Source of the DNA: Haloplanus rubicundus
Lineage (GTDB): Archaea > Halobacteriota > Halobacteria > Halobacteriales > Haloferacaceae
Length of the DNA stretch: 64,000 bases
Reading direction: 5' to 3'
NCBI RefSeq assembly: GCF_003342675.1
Contig: NZ_CP031148.1
Span: forward strand, 2,418,001-2,482,000
The notes under the pieces are model-generated. The model searched no databases. It was not told the origin of the DNA and saw nothing but the letters and a program-made list of their open reading frames with translations. The first letter of the stretch is position 1. Each line of letters starts with the position of its first letter. A program made the position numbers and the translations under genes. Of this stretch, positions 6,113 to 63,898 are shown piece by piece.

Positions 6113-7249
6113 ATGACGGAGGACTTCTACGACGTGCTCGGGGTGTCTCGGGACGCCGACGAGGACGAGATCAAACAGGCGTACCGAAAGAAGGCATCGG
6201 AGTACCATCCGGACGTGAGCGACGACTCCGACGCCGAGGAGAAGTTCAAGAAGGCCAAGAAGGCGAAGGAGATCCTTACGGACGAGGAGAAGCGGCAGGC
6301 GTACGACCGGATGGGCCACGAGCGCTTCGAGCAGGCCGAGAAGCGCGGCGGGTTCGACGGCGGTGCCGGCGGCGCGGGGGGCAACCCCTTCGGCGGCGGC
6401 GGTGCCGGCGGCTTCGGCGACATCTTCGAGCAGTTCTTCGGCGGCGGCGGCCGCGGCGGCAACCGCCCCCGACAGGGGCAGGACCTCCGCACGTCGCTCT
6501 CGCTGGACCTGGAGGAGGCGTTCGAGGGCGTCGAACGCGAGTTCACCGTCACCCGTCCGTCGCGGTGTTCGGACTGTGACGGCGCGGGCCACCCCCCGGA
6601 CGCCGACGAGCGGACGTGTCCCAACTGCGACGGCCAGGGGCAGGTGACTCAGGTCCAACAGACGCCGTTCGGGCGGATGCAACAGACGGGGACCTGCCGC
6701 CGGTGTGACGGCGAGGGAACCCTCTACAGCGAGACGTGTTCGACCTGTGGCGGCGAGGGGCAGGTGCGCGAGGAGTCGACGCTGACCGTCGACATCCCGG
6801 CCGGCATCCGCGACGGGCAGACCCTCCGGATGGAGGGCGAGGGGGCGCCGGGACCGAACCGCGGGCCGAACGGCGACCTGCTGATCGAGGTGTCGGTCGC
6901 GGACCACCCCGATTTCGACCGCGACGGCGACGACCTGCACTACCAGCATCCCATCTCTTTCCCGCAGGCGACGTTCGGCGACACGGTGGAGGTGCCGACC
7001 CTCGACGGCACCGTCGAGATGGACGTGCCCGCGGGCACCCAGAGCGGCGAAACTTTCCGCCTGCAGGGCAAGGGGATGCCACGCCTCCGCCGTCGCGGGC
7101 GGGGTGACCTCTTCGTGCAGGTGCAGGTCGTGACGCCGGACAGCCTGAACAAAGAGCAACGGGAAGCACTGGAGCGCTTCGCGGAGGCCGGCGGCGAGGA
7201 AGTCGACGTGAACGAGGGCTTCTTCGAGCGGATCAAGAGCAGTTTCTGA
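6113..7249 (+). CDS. dnaJ: Chaperone protein DnaJ (Hsp40)
   Basis: Type I J-protein that stimulates DnaK ATPase and delivers unfolded clients. J domain at residues 1-70 with the HPD triad at 32-34; a Gly/Phe-rich linker (about 80-120); four zinc-binding repeats CSDCDGAG, CPNCDGQG, CRRCDGEG and CSTCGGEG; and a C-terminal substrate-binding domain. 378 residues, complete. It follows dnaK by 47 bp. Its stop codon is the first three bases of palindromic element copy B. Confidence 0.98.
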   Translation: MTEDFYDVLGVSRDADEDEIKQAYRKKASEYHPDVSDDSDAEEKFKKAKKAKEILTDEEKRQAYDRMGHERFEQAEKRGGFDGGAGGAGGNPFGGGGAGGFGDIFEQFFGGGGRGGNRPRQGQDLRTSLSLDLEEAFEGVEREFTVTRPSRCSDCDGAGHPPDADERTCPNCDGQGQVTQVQQTPFGRMQQTGTCRRCDGEGTLYSETCSTCGGEGQVREESTLTVDIPAGIRDGQTLRMEGEGAPGPNRGPNGDLLIEVSVADHPDFDRDGDDLHYQHPISFPQATFGDTVEVPTLDGTVEMDVPAGTQSGETFRLQGKGMPRLRRRGRGDLFVQVQVVTPDSLNKEQREALERFAEAGGEEVDVNEGFFERIKSSF

Positions 7250-7330
7250 TACTGCCGGCTGTGAGTCAATCGAGATATCCGTCACCGCGGGGTGATAGAT
7301 ACCTTGAAACAGTTACAGCCGGCAGTATGA
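7247..7330. repeat. Palindromic intergenic element, copy B (dnaJ 3' end)
   Basis: Starts with the dnaJ stop (TGATACTGCCGGCTGTGAGT) and ends AACAGTTACAGCCGGCAGTATGA. The outer 14 bp (ATACTGCCGGCTGT) are a perfect inverted repeat, with an inner CACC/GGTG stem. Compared with the other copies both arms share the same altered bases (CTGCCGGC instead of CGGATTAT), so the pairing is kept although the sequence changed. Confidence 0.75.
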
Positions 7331-7334
7331 ACAG

Positions 7335-8069
7335 ATGCACGTCCTCGGCGACGTCGTCGCGCGCGACCGACGGAGCGACGAGGTGGCGCTTCGCGTCGAC
7401 GCGACGGGCCGGGAGTTCAGTTACCGGGACTTCTGCACCACCGCGTGGAAGGCGGGGCACGCGCTCAGCCACTGCGGCGTCCACGCGGGGGCACGGGTGG
7501 CGCTCGACCCCGATCCGGCGCCACAACCGCTCCTGACGCTGTTCGGGGCCGCGTGTCTCGGCGCGCGCGTGACGTTCGACACGGCGGCGGAGTCACGGGC
7601 CGTCCTCGTCCCCGCCGCCCGCGAGGGCGAGGTGGCGAGGCGGCCCGAGCGAAAAGTCGTCGTCTACGGCGACGCGCCCGACGATCCGGGGGTCGTCCAC
7701 TGGGAGCGGACGGTCTGGAGCGAGAACCCCGTCCGGCCACCGGGCGAGCGTGACGCCGAGGAAGTTGTCTTGGACGGCACGGAGCCACGCTCCGCGGGCA
7801 GTCGGCCAAGGGCCGACGACGTCGACGCGGCGACGTACACGCACCGCGAGGTGTTGGCGGCGGCGACGAGTGTCGCCGACGCGACGGGTATCGACTCCGG
7901 AACGTCGGTCGCGCTCCGGGCGCCCCTGACCGATCCGCGGGCGGTCGTCGCGGGCGTCGTGGCGCCGCTCGCGAGGGGTGGGACGGTCGTGCTCCCGGAC
8001 GGGGCGACGGACGCGGACGTGGTGGTCGGTGCGGACGGCGACGTTCGCCTCGACGACGTACCACTGTGA
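7335..8069 (+). CDS. Truncated AMP-dependent acyl-CoA synthetase-like protein
   Basis: 244 residues resembling only the N-terminal part of acyl/aryl-CoA synthetases: a YRDFCTTAWKAGHALSHCGVHAGARVAL segment, LLTLFGAACLGARVTF, then YTHREVLAAATSVADATG and RGGTVVLPDGA. The P-loop (TSGTTG.PKG) that normally precedes the THRE segment is missing, and so is the whole C-terminal catalytic domain, so adenylating activity is unlikely. The reading frame is clean and codon use looks normal, which suggests a retained non-catalytic protein rather than recent decay. The start is the ATG at 7335, just after palindrome copy B. Confidence 0.55.
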   Translation: MHVLGDVVARDRRSDEVALRVDATGREFSYRDFCTTAWKAGHALSHCGVHAGARVALDPDPAPQPLLTLFGAACLGARVTFDTAAESRAVLVPAAREGEVARRPERKVVVYGDAPDDPGVVHWERTVWSENPVRPPGERDAEEVVLDGTEPRSAGSRPRADDVDAATYTHREVLAAATSVADATGIDSGTSVALRAPLTDPRAVVAGVVAPLARGGTVVLPDGATDADVVVGADGDVRLDDVPL

Positions 8070-9627: not shown

Positions 9628-9713
9628 TCATACGGATTATTATAAGTCATCACCGGTGGGTCGGCGAGACGATCCGGCGATCCACCGGTGAATAGTTACA
9701 ATACTCCGTATCA
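9628..9713. repeat. Palindromic intergenic element, copy C
   Basis: Lies between the convergent transporter and CBS genes. Left arm TCATACGGATTATTATAAGT, right arm (reverse complement) TGATACGGAGTATTGTAACT; inner stem CACCGGTGG.TCG on both sides. The right end overlaps the stop codon of the CBS gene, giving TGATACGG as in the other copies. One of the two best-formed members. Confidence 0.85.
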
Positions 9714-10139
9714 CGCCTCCGGTTCGAACTCCCGGGACTGCGATTCGATGACCGTCGCCACGTCCTTCAGCATCTCCCCGAGGGTCGCGACCACGTCGTC
9801 GAGCGTCGCGATGCCGACGAGTCGGCCGTCGTCGTCGACGACCGGGATACGACGCACGCGACCCTCGGCCATCGTGGCGGGGAGGTCGACGGCGGTGGCG
9901 TCGCGGTGGATCGTCACCGGATCGGGCGTCATCACGTCCGCCGCGGTGAGCGTCGAGAGGTCGTCGTATCGCGCCACCGCGAGCGCGACGTCGCGGTCGG
10001 TGACGATGCCGACCGGACGGTCGTCCTCGGCGATCACGAGGTCACCGATCTCCTCGTCGAGCATTCGCTTGGCGAGTTCCGTAAGTGACGTGTCTCGTCG
10101 GGCGGTTACCACGTCGACGGCGAGGGTCTCGACTGGCAT
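9711..10139 (-). CDS. CBS domain protein
   Basis: 142 residues made almost entirely of two CBS domains (about residues 5-65 and 70-130), which bind adenine nucleotides and act as energy-sensing modules. Visible motifs are DLVIAEDDRPVGIVTDRDVA (first) and RIPVVDDDGRLVGIATLDDV (second). No other domain is present, so it is a stand-alone sensor with unknown partner. I chose ATG at 10139 because the TATA-like CATTATTG at about 10168 is 28 bp upstream; an in-frame ATG at 10160 is too close to that box. Confidence 0.9.
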   Translation of the reverse strand: MPVETLAVDVVTARRDTSLTELAKRMLDEEIGDLVIAEDDRPVGIVTDRDVALAVARYDDLSTLTAADVMTPDPVTIHRDATAVDLPATMAEGRVRRIPVVDDDGRLVGIATLDDVVATLGEMLKDVATVIESQSREFEPEA

Positions 10140-10216
10140 ACGCTCAAAATTCACTTCCATTGACAATAATGCCGCGGTGCTTACCAGCGAGTGAGAATCG
10201 AGTGGCGGCCCCGGCA

Positions 10217-10231
10217 AATCCTTTTTATTCC
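10217..10231 (+). promoter_or_regulatory. Promoter of the GNAT gene
   Basis: CCTTTTTATTCC lies 26 bp before the ATG at 10251, fitting a leaderless transcript. Confidence 0.5.
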
Positions 10232-15074: not shown

Positions 15075-15989
15075 ATGGAAGGGAAGCGCGCCCTCGTGAC
15101 GGGCGGTGCGGGGTTCATCGGCTCGAATCTGGCGAATCGACTGGCCGCCGACAACGAGGTCATCGCCCTCGACGACTGCCACCTCGGAACGCCCGAGAAC
15201 CTCACGGACGACGTGCAGTTCGTCGACGGGAGCGTCCTCGACGACGACCTGCCGACCGACGTGGACGCCCTCTTTCACCTCGCGGCCTACTCCTCGTACA
15301 CGATGGTCGAGGAGCACAAGCGGGAGGCCACGCGCGTCAACGTCGAGGGATTCGTCAACACGGTCGAACAGGCCCGAGAGGACGGCTGTGACACCGTCGT
15401 CTACGCCTCCACCTCCTCGATTTACGGCTCCCGGACCGACCCCTCACCCGAGGACATGCCCATCGAGGCCCGCACCTGCTACGAGGCGTCGAAACTCGCC
15501 CGCGAACGCTACGCCGAATACTTCGGCAACCACTACGACGTGACGCTCGCCGGCCTCCGATTCTTCTCGGTCTATCAGGGGTACGGTGGCGCCGAGGAGC
15601 ACAAGGGGGAGTACGCGAACACCGTCGCACAGTTCGCCGACGCCATCGCGAGCGGCGAGGCGCCGGTCCTGTTCGGCGACGGCACCCAGACGCGGGATTT
15701 CACCCACGTCGACGACGTGGTTCGGGCCATCGAACTCGCTGCCGACCACGAGCTGGAGGGCATCTACAACGTCGGCACCGGCGAGAGCTACGACTTCAAC
15801 ACGATGGTCGAGATGATCAACGACGAACTCGGCACCGATGTCGACCCCGAGTACGTCGAGAACCCCCTCGACGTGTACGTCCACGACACGATGGCCGACG
15901 CGACGAAACTCCGCGAGGCGACGGGGTGGGAACCGGACGTGGGGTTCGAGGAGGGCGTCGCGCGGGTGTGTGAACCGTATTTGGAGTGA
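15075..15989 (+). CDS. NAD-dependent epimerase/dehydratase (UDP-glucose 4-epimerase-like)
   Basis: 304-residue extended short-chain dehydrogenase. NAD-binding ALVTGGAGFIGSNL near residue 5, the active-site YxxxK in CYEASKLARE near residue 135, Ser in ASTSSIYGS, and the sugar-nucleotide-binding FGDGTQTRDFTHVDDVVRA. The fold acts on nucleotide-activated sugars, probably for surface glycans. The start MEGKRALVTGG is set by the fold; the frame continues upstream without homology. The last 13 codons plus stop are repeated twice more downstream in a 69-bp tandem repeat. Confidence 0.85.
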   Translation: MEGKRALVTGGAGFIGSNLANRLAADNEVIALDDCHLGTPENLTDDVQFVDGSVLDDDLPTDVDALFHLAAYSSYTMVEEHKREATRVNVEGFVNTVEQAREDGCDTVVYASTSSIYGSRTDPSPEDMPIEARTCYEASKLARERYAEYFGNHYDVTLAGLRFFSVYQGYGGAEEHKGEYANTVAQFADAIASGEAPVLFGDGTQTRDFTHVDDVVRAIELAADHELEGIYNVGTGESYDFNTMVEMINDELGTDVDPEYVENPLDVYVHDTMADATKLREATGWEPDVGFEEGVARVCEPYLE

Positions 15990-16127
15990 GGCTTCGAGCG
16001 CGAGGCCCGACGAGTCGAGGAGGGCGTCGCGCGGGTGTGCGAACCGTATTTGGAGTAGCCCTGCGAGCGCGAGGCCCGACGAGTCGAGGAGGGCGTCGCG
16101 CGGGTGTGTGAACCGTATTTGGAGTGA
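15949..16127 (+). repeat. 69-bp tandem repeat containing the 3' end of the epimerase gene
   Basis: The 39-bp core that encodes EEGVARVCEPYLE occurs three times, starting near 15949, 16018 and 16087, at an exact 69-bp period. The first copy is inside the gene; the two later ones are downstream. The spacer (GAGCGCGAGGCCCGACGAGTC) occurs twice. The three cores differ only at a TGT/TGC Cys codon and in the stop (TGA, TAG, TGA). The period is a multiple of three, so all copies keep the epimerase frame. Confidence 0.92.
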
Positions 16128-16181
16128 GTCGTCGCGCACCGCCGGGACTGCCTCTTTACGCGCTCCGCGCGAACGACCCGT

Positions 16182-32072: not shown

Positions 32073-32158
32073 TTATACGGTTTCTTGTAAGTCAGTACCG
32101 GTGGGTCGCCGAGACAGTCCAGCGAACCACCGGTACACAGGTACAATAATCCGTATCA
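32073..32158. repeat. Palindromic intergenic element, copy D
   Basis: Occupies the whole gap between the convergent GCS2-like and psmB genes. Left arm TTATACGGTTTCTTGTAAGT, right arm (reverse complement) TGATACGGATTATTGTACCT; inner stem GTACCGGTGG.TCGC. The right arm includes the psmB stop codon. With copy C this is the most complete member. Confidence 0.85.
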
Positions 32159-57192: not shown

Positions 57193-57342
57193 ATGCCCCA
57201 CACGCTCGAAATCAGCGACGAACTCAAGCAACGGCTGGACAAGCATCTCGAGGAGGACGAGACCCACGAGGAGTTCATCGAGGAACTGGTCTCGATGTAC
57301 GAGACCGAGGGCGCGTTCCTGCAGGAAGGCTACTCGGAGTGA
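57193..57342 (+). CDS. DUF7557-like small protein (paralogue)
   Basis: 49 residues: MPHTLEISDELKQRLDKHLEE, then DETHEEFIEELVSMYETEGAFLQEGYSE. Same length and architecture as the protein at 33783-33932 (beta strand, then two helices with EEFIEELVSMYE against DEIITELINIYE). RHH-antitoxin-like appearance. The TATA-like GGTTATTTCC about 45 bp upstream is a weak promoter candidate. Its TGA opens palindrome copy E. Confidence 0.72.
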   Translation: MPHTLEISDELKQRLDKHLEEDETHEEFIEELVSMYETEGAFLQEGYSE

Positions 57343-57424
57343 GACGGTTTATCGTAGTCAGTACCGGTGAGTCGCCGGACCGTCTCGGCGACCACCGGTA
57401 AACAGTTACGATAAACCGTACGAG
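57340..57424. repeat. Palindromic intergenic element, copy E
   Basis: Begins with the stop codon of the preceding 49-aa gene: TGAGACGGTTTATCGTAGTC; right arm (reverse complement) CTCGTACGGTTTATCGTAAC. Inner stem GTACCGGTGAGTCGCCGGAC against GGTTTACCGGTGGTCGCCGA. Both arms share GGTTTATCGTA, a variant not seen in the other copies, so the arms co-vary. Confidence 0.82.
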
Positions 57425-63098: not shown

Positions 63099-63817
63099 CG
63101 TTCTTACTGGTCCACGGCGACCGGGAGTATCTCCGGGCACCCGGCGAGGAACTCCAGACGGACCTCGGCGTGTTGACGGTCCCCGAGGACGCCGAACCCG
63201 GCGACCGACTGGAGACCCATCTCGGCGACGAGTTCGTCGTCCGCGAGCCGCGCGGCCCGGACCTGTTCGACCACTTCGAGCGCACGGGCGCGCCGATGAT
63301 GCCCCGCGACGTGGGATTGGTCGTCGGCTTCACCGGCGCCGCGGCGGGGGACCGCGTCCTCGACGCCGGCACCGGGACGGGCGTCCTCGCGGCCTACCTC
63401 GGTCGCATCGGTGCCGACGTAGTGACCTACGAACGCGACGCCGAGTTCGCCGAGGTGGCCCGCGAGAACATGCGCCTCGCGGGCGTCGAGGGGACCGTAG
63501 ACGTGCGGACCGGCGACGTGACCGACGACCTCGATTCCCTCGCCGGATTCGACCTCCTCACCCTCGACACCGAGGACGCCCCGGACGTCGTCCGCCGGGC
63601 GCCCGACGTCCTCGTCAGCGGCGGGTTCGTCGTCGTCTACTCGCCCTTCGTCGAGGGGTCGCGGGCGGCCGTCGAGGCCGCCGAGGACGCGGGGCTGACC
63701 GACGTGACGACCCACGAGACGATCCAGCGGTCGATGCAGTTCGACGACCGGGGGTCGCGGCCCGACACCCGCGGCGTCGGCCACACGGGCTATCTCACCG
63801 TCGCGCGGTGGGAGTGA
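63095..63817 (+). CDS. trmI: TrmI-type tRNA (adenine-N1) methyltransferase
   Basis: 240 residues. N-terminal beta-rich domain with the [19 protein letters not shown] pattern, then the SAM-dependent fold: [42 protein letters not shown] (motif I and acidic loop), [15 protein letters not shown] (post-I/II) and [17 protein letters not shown]. Archaeal TrmI methylates A57/A58 in the T-loop. GTG start at 63095 overlaps the nac stop, so the pair is one operon. Its TGA opens palindrome copy F. Confidence 0.88.
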
Positions 63818-63898
63818 TACGAATTACTGTAACTGACCGGTGAGTCGCCGGACTGCCTCGGCGACCCACCGGTACTGACGTACGAGAAACCGTATGAG
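63815..63898. repeat. Palindromic intergenic element, copy F
   Basis: Begins with the trmI stop (TGATACGAATTACTGTAACTG); right arm (reverse complement) CTCATACGGTTTCTCGTACG. Inner stem GACCGGTGAGTCGCCGGACT against GTACCGGTGGGTCGCCGAGG. A slightly diverged member. Confidence 0.8.

Follow-up and report, generated by a model that had tools for sequence, protein, structure and literature searches.

The dnaJ gene of Haloplanus rubicundus is followed directly by a palindrome, and the locus raises the question of what keeps the two arms of that palindrome alike. It lies in a 64,000-nucleotide stretch of DNA (hereafter the window, to which coordinates refer unless otherwise stated) that contains several related copies. 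A sequence-only reading of the window had noted that the arms of the copy next to dnaJ (copy B) differ from those of the other copies and yet match each other. It took this as compensating change, left by selection for pairing or by copying between arms, and as an argument for a functional hairpin in DNA or RNA.

Copy B occupies positions 7250-7327 of the plus strand (TACTGCCGGCTGT...ACAGCCGGCAGTA). It is about 78 bp long, devoid of coding capacity and flanked by two TGA triplets, at 7247-7249 and 7328-7330 (both on the plus strand). The left triplet is the stop codon of dnaJ (ORF 6113-7249), as indicated by the ORF table, the sequence and the empty site TTTCTGA in relatives, and the right triplet was assigned from the sequence and from the duplication statistics of 72 copies. 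The span noted earlier, 7247-7330, thus takes in both halves of a target duplication. The window reads ATACTGCCGGCTGT...ACAGCCGGCAGTAT from 7249 to 7328, with a terminal inverted repeat that is perfect over 14 bp, and the description of arms alike within the copy and different from those of other copies was therefore correct. The palindrome contains two short boxes on the plus strand. The left one, TGTGAGTC (7260-7267; consensus TGTAAGTC), covers the inner end of the outer stem and an unpaired GTC, and the right one, CAGTTACA (7310-7317), is identical to its consensus. Compared with dinucleotide shuffles, the predicted fold of copy B has a z score of -6.2 as DNA and -9.2 as RNA, equalled by none of 200 shuffles. 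Rfam searches gave no match above the gathering score, and a single sub-threshold chance match (plant MIR400) fell on a neighbouring copy. The gene located 3' of dnaJ (7335-8069) codes for 244 residues that match the start of AMP-binding enzymes (Pfam PF00501); given this short length, it may represent a relative that is truncated or of domain size. Further along the window, positions 15946-16152 hold three tandem 69-nt repeats, the second and third being 91% and 77% identical to the first.

The window lies on a 3.4-Mb chromosome, contig C2 of the H. rubicundus genome (G000). This genome harbours at least 91 distinct copies of such elements, a number that is a lower bound. They are 78-80 bp long, with ends of the form TAC...GTA, and most fall into two subfamilies. 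The pattern of subfamily 1, whose copies read ATACGG(T/A)TTA.TGTAAGTCA..ACCGGTGGTTCGCC..., has 81 matches genome-wide, with none for the reversed-pattern control, and a covariance model gave 147 strand-wise matches. That of subfamily 2, whose copies read ATACTGYCGGCTGTAAGTC.ATC.AGATATTCGCCACC..., was found at 19 places, again with no control match. Copy B belongs to subfamily 2. Its contrast with its neighbours is therefore one between subfamilies, not a case of compensated mutation within one of them, and on this point the earlier interpretation does not hold.

The other copies in the window belong to subfamily 1. Three of them (9630-9711, 32075-32156 and 63817-63896 with their flanking bases) have arms of the ATACGG(A/T)TT.(A/T)TGT type. 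The element at 9631-9710 (plus strand) has a duplicated TCA on either side (9628-9630 and 9711-9713); according to the ORF table, the right-hand triplet is the stop codon of a minus-strand CBS-domain gene (9711-10217). Copy C (32076-32155, plus strand) abuts a right TCA duplication at 32156-32158, where a coding-like ORF on the minus strand has its stop codon; this copy is shared with a sister species, where it has decayed. The element at 63818-63894 lies in the opposite orientation, on the minus strand, between TGA duplications at 63815-63817 and 63895-63897. The stop sites of these last two copies passed the coding-like test. Copy E (57343-57420, plus strand; GACGGTTTATCGTAGTC...ACAGTTACGATAAACCGTA) follows a TGA at 57340-57342, and within 57342-57421 GGTTTATCGTA is indeed present in both of its arms, as had been noted for this copy.

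A third, rarer type occurs at loci L060 and L075. In these and around position 745 of L041, the ends read (C)TATAGTAGCG and the inner stem CACACCTGATCGCA; the boundaries of these copies are uncertain and no clean TNA duplication was found around them. Locus L258 (G000:C2:2538000-2548000) contains five copies in approximately 5.5 kb, mostly between consecutive housekeeping genes (diphthamide synthesis, CetZ, histidine kinase, amidase). At L142, around 2055-2105, a shortened element has lost most of its inner stem and kept both outer arms and the boxes.

The hairpin element is mobile, as shown by a 3-bp TNA duplication, an empty site at dnaJ and a nested insertion with an empty counterpart. The middle base of the flanking TNA triplets is identical on both sides in 58 of 72 copies, compared with a mean of 26.6 and a maximum of 42 in 2000 permutations, and is complementary in two; the duplication is thus direct and exactly 3 bp long. 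In other genomes, the middle base is identical for 24 of 28 copies. Of the Haloplanus genomes searched, only H. rubicundus has the copy at dnaJ, and in the 11 others the site is empty. The sister species G260, for instance, reads TTTCTGA-TCACGGATGCACG, where H. rubicundus reads TTTCTGA-(78 nt)-TGA-ACAGATGCACG. In addition, a subfamily-2 copy is nested within a subfamily-1 copy at AAG-TCA, with TCA duplicated, and a sister species keeps the unoccupied element at that place. Conversely, a subfamily-1 copy interrupts the arm of a subfamily-2 element at TGA.

The duplicated triplet is often a stop codon. Using simple gene calls (open frame and GC3 bias), we found that for 47 of 72 copies it is the stop of a coding-like ORF, whereas stop codons make up 105 of the 817 non-coding (intergenic-or-stop) TNA sites at the same loci, i.e. 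12.9% expected. With the context matched (S-T-S-A-S), the figures are 35 of 47 copies versus 46 of 254 sites. The elements favour neither orientation with respect to the gene (22 left, 25 right). The proportion is lower in other genera, with 7 of 26 copies in genome G347 and 12 of 28 in a mixed set. Part of the enrichment may reflect the survival of harmless insertions. In the case of dnaJ, the element landed on the TGA stop codon and regenerated it.

Related elements are widespread in haloarchaea. The box pair TGTAAGTC...CAGTTACA, with the boxes approximately 40-45 bases apart, was detected in 48 of 392 Halobacteriales genomes, representing 23 genera, against a handful of control matches. Outside the order, 312 genomes of the phylum gave two matches, both AT-rich and with spacers that are not self-complementary. 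The boxes are unpaired and near-invariant across genera, and they are mismatched (GTC opposite CAG) in every genus; variant boxes, TGTAAATC and ATCGTTACA, were also found and are mismatched too. The inner stems differ wholly in sequence between genera and are still paired, and the outer arms fall into a few types common to several genera. No viral contig matched the strict element pattern, and BLAST searches of plasmids returned gene matches only. In genome G197, a subfamily with altered boxes, TGTAAATCA and AATCGTTACA (loci L266-L292), comprises many near-identical, presumably recent copies and is a good place to look for an active transposase.

We then asked whether the stems covary, using a home-made, R-scape-like test (tree, Fitch reconstruction, branch-wise reassignment of substitutions and a G statistic with average-product correction). 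Among the copies of this genome, the comparison that the sequence-only reading had proposed, no pair was significant when all pairs were tested one by one, either in subfamily 1 (38 sequences) or in subfamily 2 (16 sequences). Double changes that restore Watson-Crick pairs are nevertheless in excess, with 27 in subfamily 1 versus a null mean of 5.4 (maximum 12 in 500) and 10 in subfamily 2 versus a null mean of 1.8 (maximum 7). Among the 630 column pairs of a wider alignment, with 55 haloarchaeal sequences drawn from many genera, eight were significant, each of them a stem pair. Stem covariation is thus real and pairing is maintained. Because the compensated double changes sit at isolated single pairs, they do not separate arm exchange from selection. 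Pair-breaking changes showed no significant enrichment on terminal branches, and so selection on mobilisation alone is not demonstrated.

Copying between arms does occur: in about half of the copies, the loop has flipped with respect to the arms. Its two orientations with respect to the boxes are found in ratios of 20:13 in subfamily 1, 4:7 in G197 and 11:12 in G347; in subfamily 1 they are random with respect to the tree, and in another genus elements with opposite loops differ at 0 of 60 outer bases. Some insertions shared between species keep the same loop orientation, and at least one orthologous copy is inverted. Arm exchange can therefore take place in place, and transposition cannot be the sole source of loop inversion. 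Of the two processes originally proposed, both pairing and copying have thus found support, although not from copy B.

In-place constraint on resident copies is mixed. Copies shared between sister species are 0.63-1.00 identical, with local flanks at about 0.89-0.94 (flank values of 0.72-0.78 stem from gapped alignments). Some resident copies, at 0.95-1.00, equal or exceed their coding flanks (about 0.92-0.94), which could mean that the host uses them. One shared copy is only 0.80 identical in another sister species, and the pairing of copy C falls from 29 of 39 pairs to 20 of 38 in G260. At L260 (1951-2050 and 3651-3750) and L309, two shared copies are 100% identical between two Haloplanus species, as is the DNA immediately next to them, although most of the surrounding and intervening DNA has diverged; this reflects either strong constraint or recombination of short patches at the elements.

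We consider it probable (roughly 0.7) that copy B is a non-autonomous, fully palindromic foldback or MITE-like element, moved by a putative transposase acting in trans and kept palindromic by mobilisation of copies with matched arms together with arm exchange, and that its insertion at the dnaJ stop codon is tolerated. The putative transposase would recognise the outer arms and the asymmetric internal loop, possibly in a folded-out form (cruciform or single-stranded), and mobilisation would be restricted to copies whose arms match. Along with template switching from arm to arm, this would keep the arms alike and generate the covariation. Insertions at stop codons would survive because the protein is not altered, the dnaJ copy being one such case. 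We infer both the mobiliser and its requirement for a palindrome. A more specific version, in which an unlinked, host-encoded transposase reads the folded hairpin through its invariant loop and varying stems, makes the 3-bp duplication and prefers stop codons, with the flip-flop of the loop as the trace of a hairpin intermediate, is speculative and rather unlikely as a whole.

The main rival as regards the mobiliser is that the element is a classical MITE belonging to a known IS that duplicates TNA, and that the autonomous parent has been lost or resides in unsampled genomes. The terminal repeats, the direct duplication, the absence of coding capacity and the sharing of a few outer-arm types among genera, as expected for distinct transposases, are all compatible with it. 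However, searches for an autonomous transposon bearing these ends were negative in the genome of H. rubicundus, among the matches listed for the very rich genome G347 (first 100 places) and, using an arm pattern with alternative bases, in 27 genomes, and invariant inner boxes with a palindromic inner stem are unusual for MITEs. We thus regard this explanation as conceivable, while leaning against it. The arm pattern has 93 matches in the H. rubicundus genome (control 0). Four unpaired arms in this genome, considered as possible parent ends, all turned out to belong to damaged or shortened short elements; an inverted arm pair 1.9 kb apart in G347 is in fact two separate short elements; the 27 genomes yielded only short elements with variant boxes; and the genes in element-dense clusters are ordinary housekeeping genes. 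A single-strand element of the REP/RAYT or IS200/IS605 type, whose hairpin is read by a Y1 (HUH) transposase, would account for an invariant unpaired motif within a freely varying stem, which resembles DNA read by its structure, and Y1 transposases are present in 10 of 12 genomes tested. Nevertheless, none of the Y1 genes of H. rubicundus is near the elements, the Haloplanus genomes G394 and G397 have element matches and no Y1 gene, and Y1 transposition is not expected to produce a 3-bp target duplication. A Y1 partner is therefore highly improbable.

The other two rivals concern the palindrome itself. The arms might be alike solely through copying, by template switching or gene conversion and with no selection for pairing, in an otherwise ordinary MITE that polishes its own palindrome. 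The loop inversions prove arm exchange at a frequency that looks random, and compensated changes at single pairs are what conversion of one mismatch would give. Conversion tracts would, however, erase the GTC-CAG mismatch that the boxes maintain in every genus, and the inner stems still pair although their sequences have been replaced completely from genus to genus; we therefore find copying alone somewhat unlikely. Throughout this replacement, something preserves both the mismatch of the boxes and the match of the stems, and selection during mobilisation would be the simplest reading. Alternatively, the host might keep the hairpin as a functional 3'-UTR element that acts on transcript ends, RNA stability or translation near the stop codon. 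The position of 47 of 72 copies exactly on stop codons, the strong RNA fold and the high identity of several shared copies relative to their flanks would fit such a role. In contrast, the lack of orientation bias, the absence of the dnaJ copy from 11 of 11 relatives, the decay of copy C and the divergence of the shared copy at 0.80 make it improbable. A hairpin functional for the host, as originally proposed, is thus not established: the element is mobile, and one resident copy has lost pairing in a sister species.

The closest described elements are the small mobile repeats SMR-A and SMR-B of Haloquadratum walsbyi, whose mobilisation was called enigmatic (PMC3119063). Like the present elements, SMRs are haloarchaeal, very short (80-110 bp), bounded by terminal inverted repeats unrelated to transposons, without a known parent, and found inserted into other mobile elements (PMC3119063). 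They reportedly lack a target duplication (PMC3119063), whereas ours have a clear 3-bp TNA duplication. The elements share with MITEs (PMC10969869) their non-coding nature, terminal inverted repeats, target duplication and tens of copies; they differ in being palindromic over their entire length, with invariant boxes inside, and in that no autonomous partner with the same ends was found. By the definition of MITEs in PMC3119063, terminal inverted repeats, a length too short for a transposase and target duplication are all present, but the genomes searched contained no long element sharing these ends, as relatedness to a known transposon would require. REP/REPIN sequences and their TnpA-REP (RAYT) proteins (PMC8266576, PMC3733652) also involve many-copy palindromes, often just past stop codons; however, those palindromes are 20-40 bp long with a GTAG/CGTC tag, while our elements are about 80 bp, without the tag, with a true target duplication and without a linked Y1 gene. 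Finally, PATEs of Haloquadratum are likewise transposase-free haloarchaeal elements with palindromes, but have neither the terminal inverted repeats nor the duplication found here (PMC3119063). We found no paper describing the present group in the open-access literature.

These elements carry an enigmatic, SMR-like kind, so far described in Haloquadratum, into much of the order and give it a defined duplication and a defined target. With dozens of sequence families in more than 20 genera, they form a large natural data set that shows directly which part of a mobile hairpin is recognised, by separating what is fixed from what only needs to pair. They also imply that a hairpin just past a stop codon in haloarchaea may be an insertion, not a terminator.
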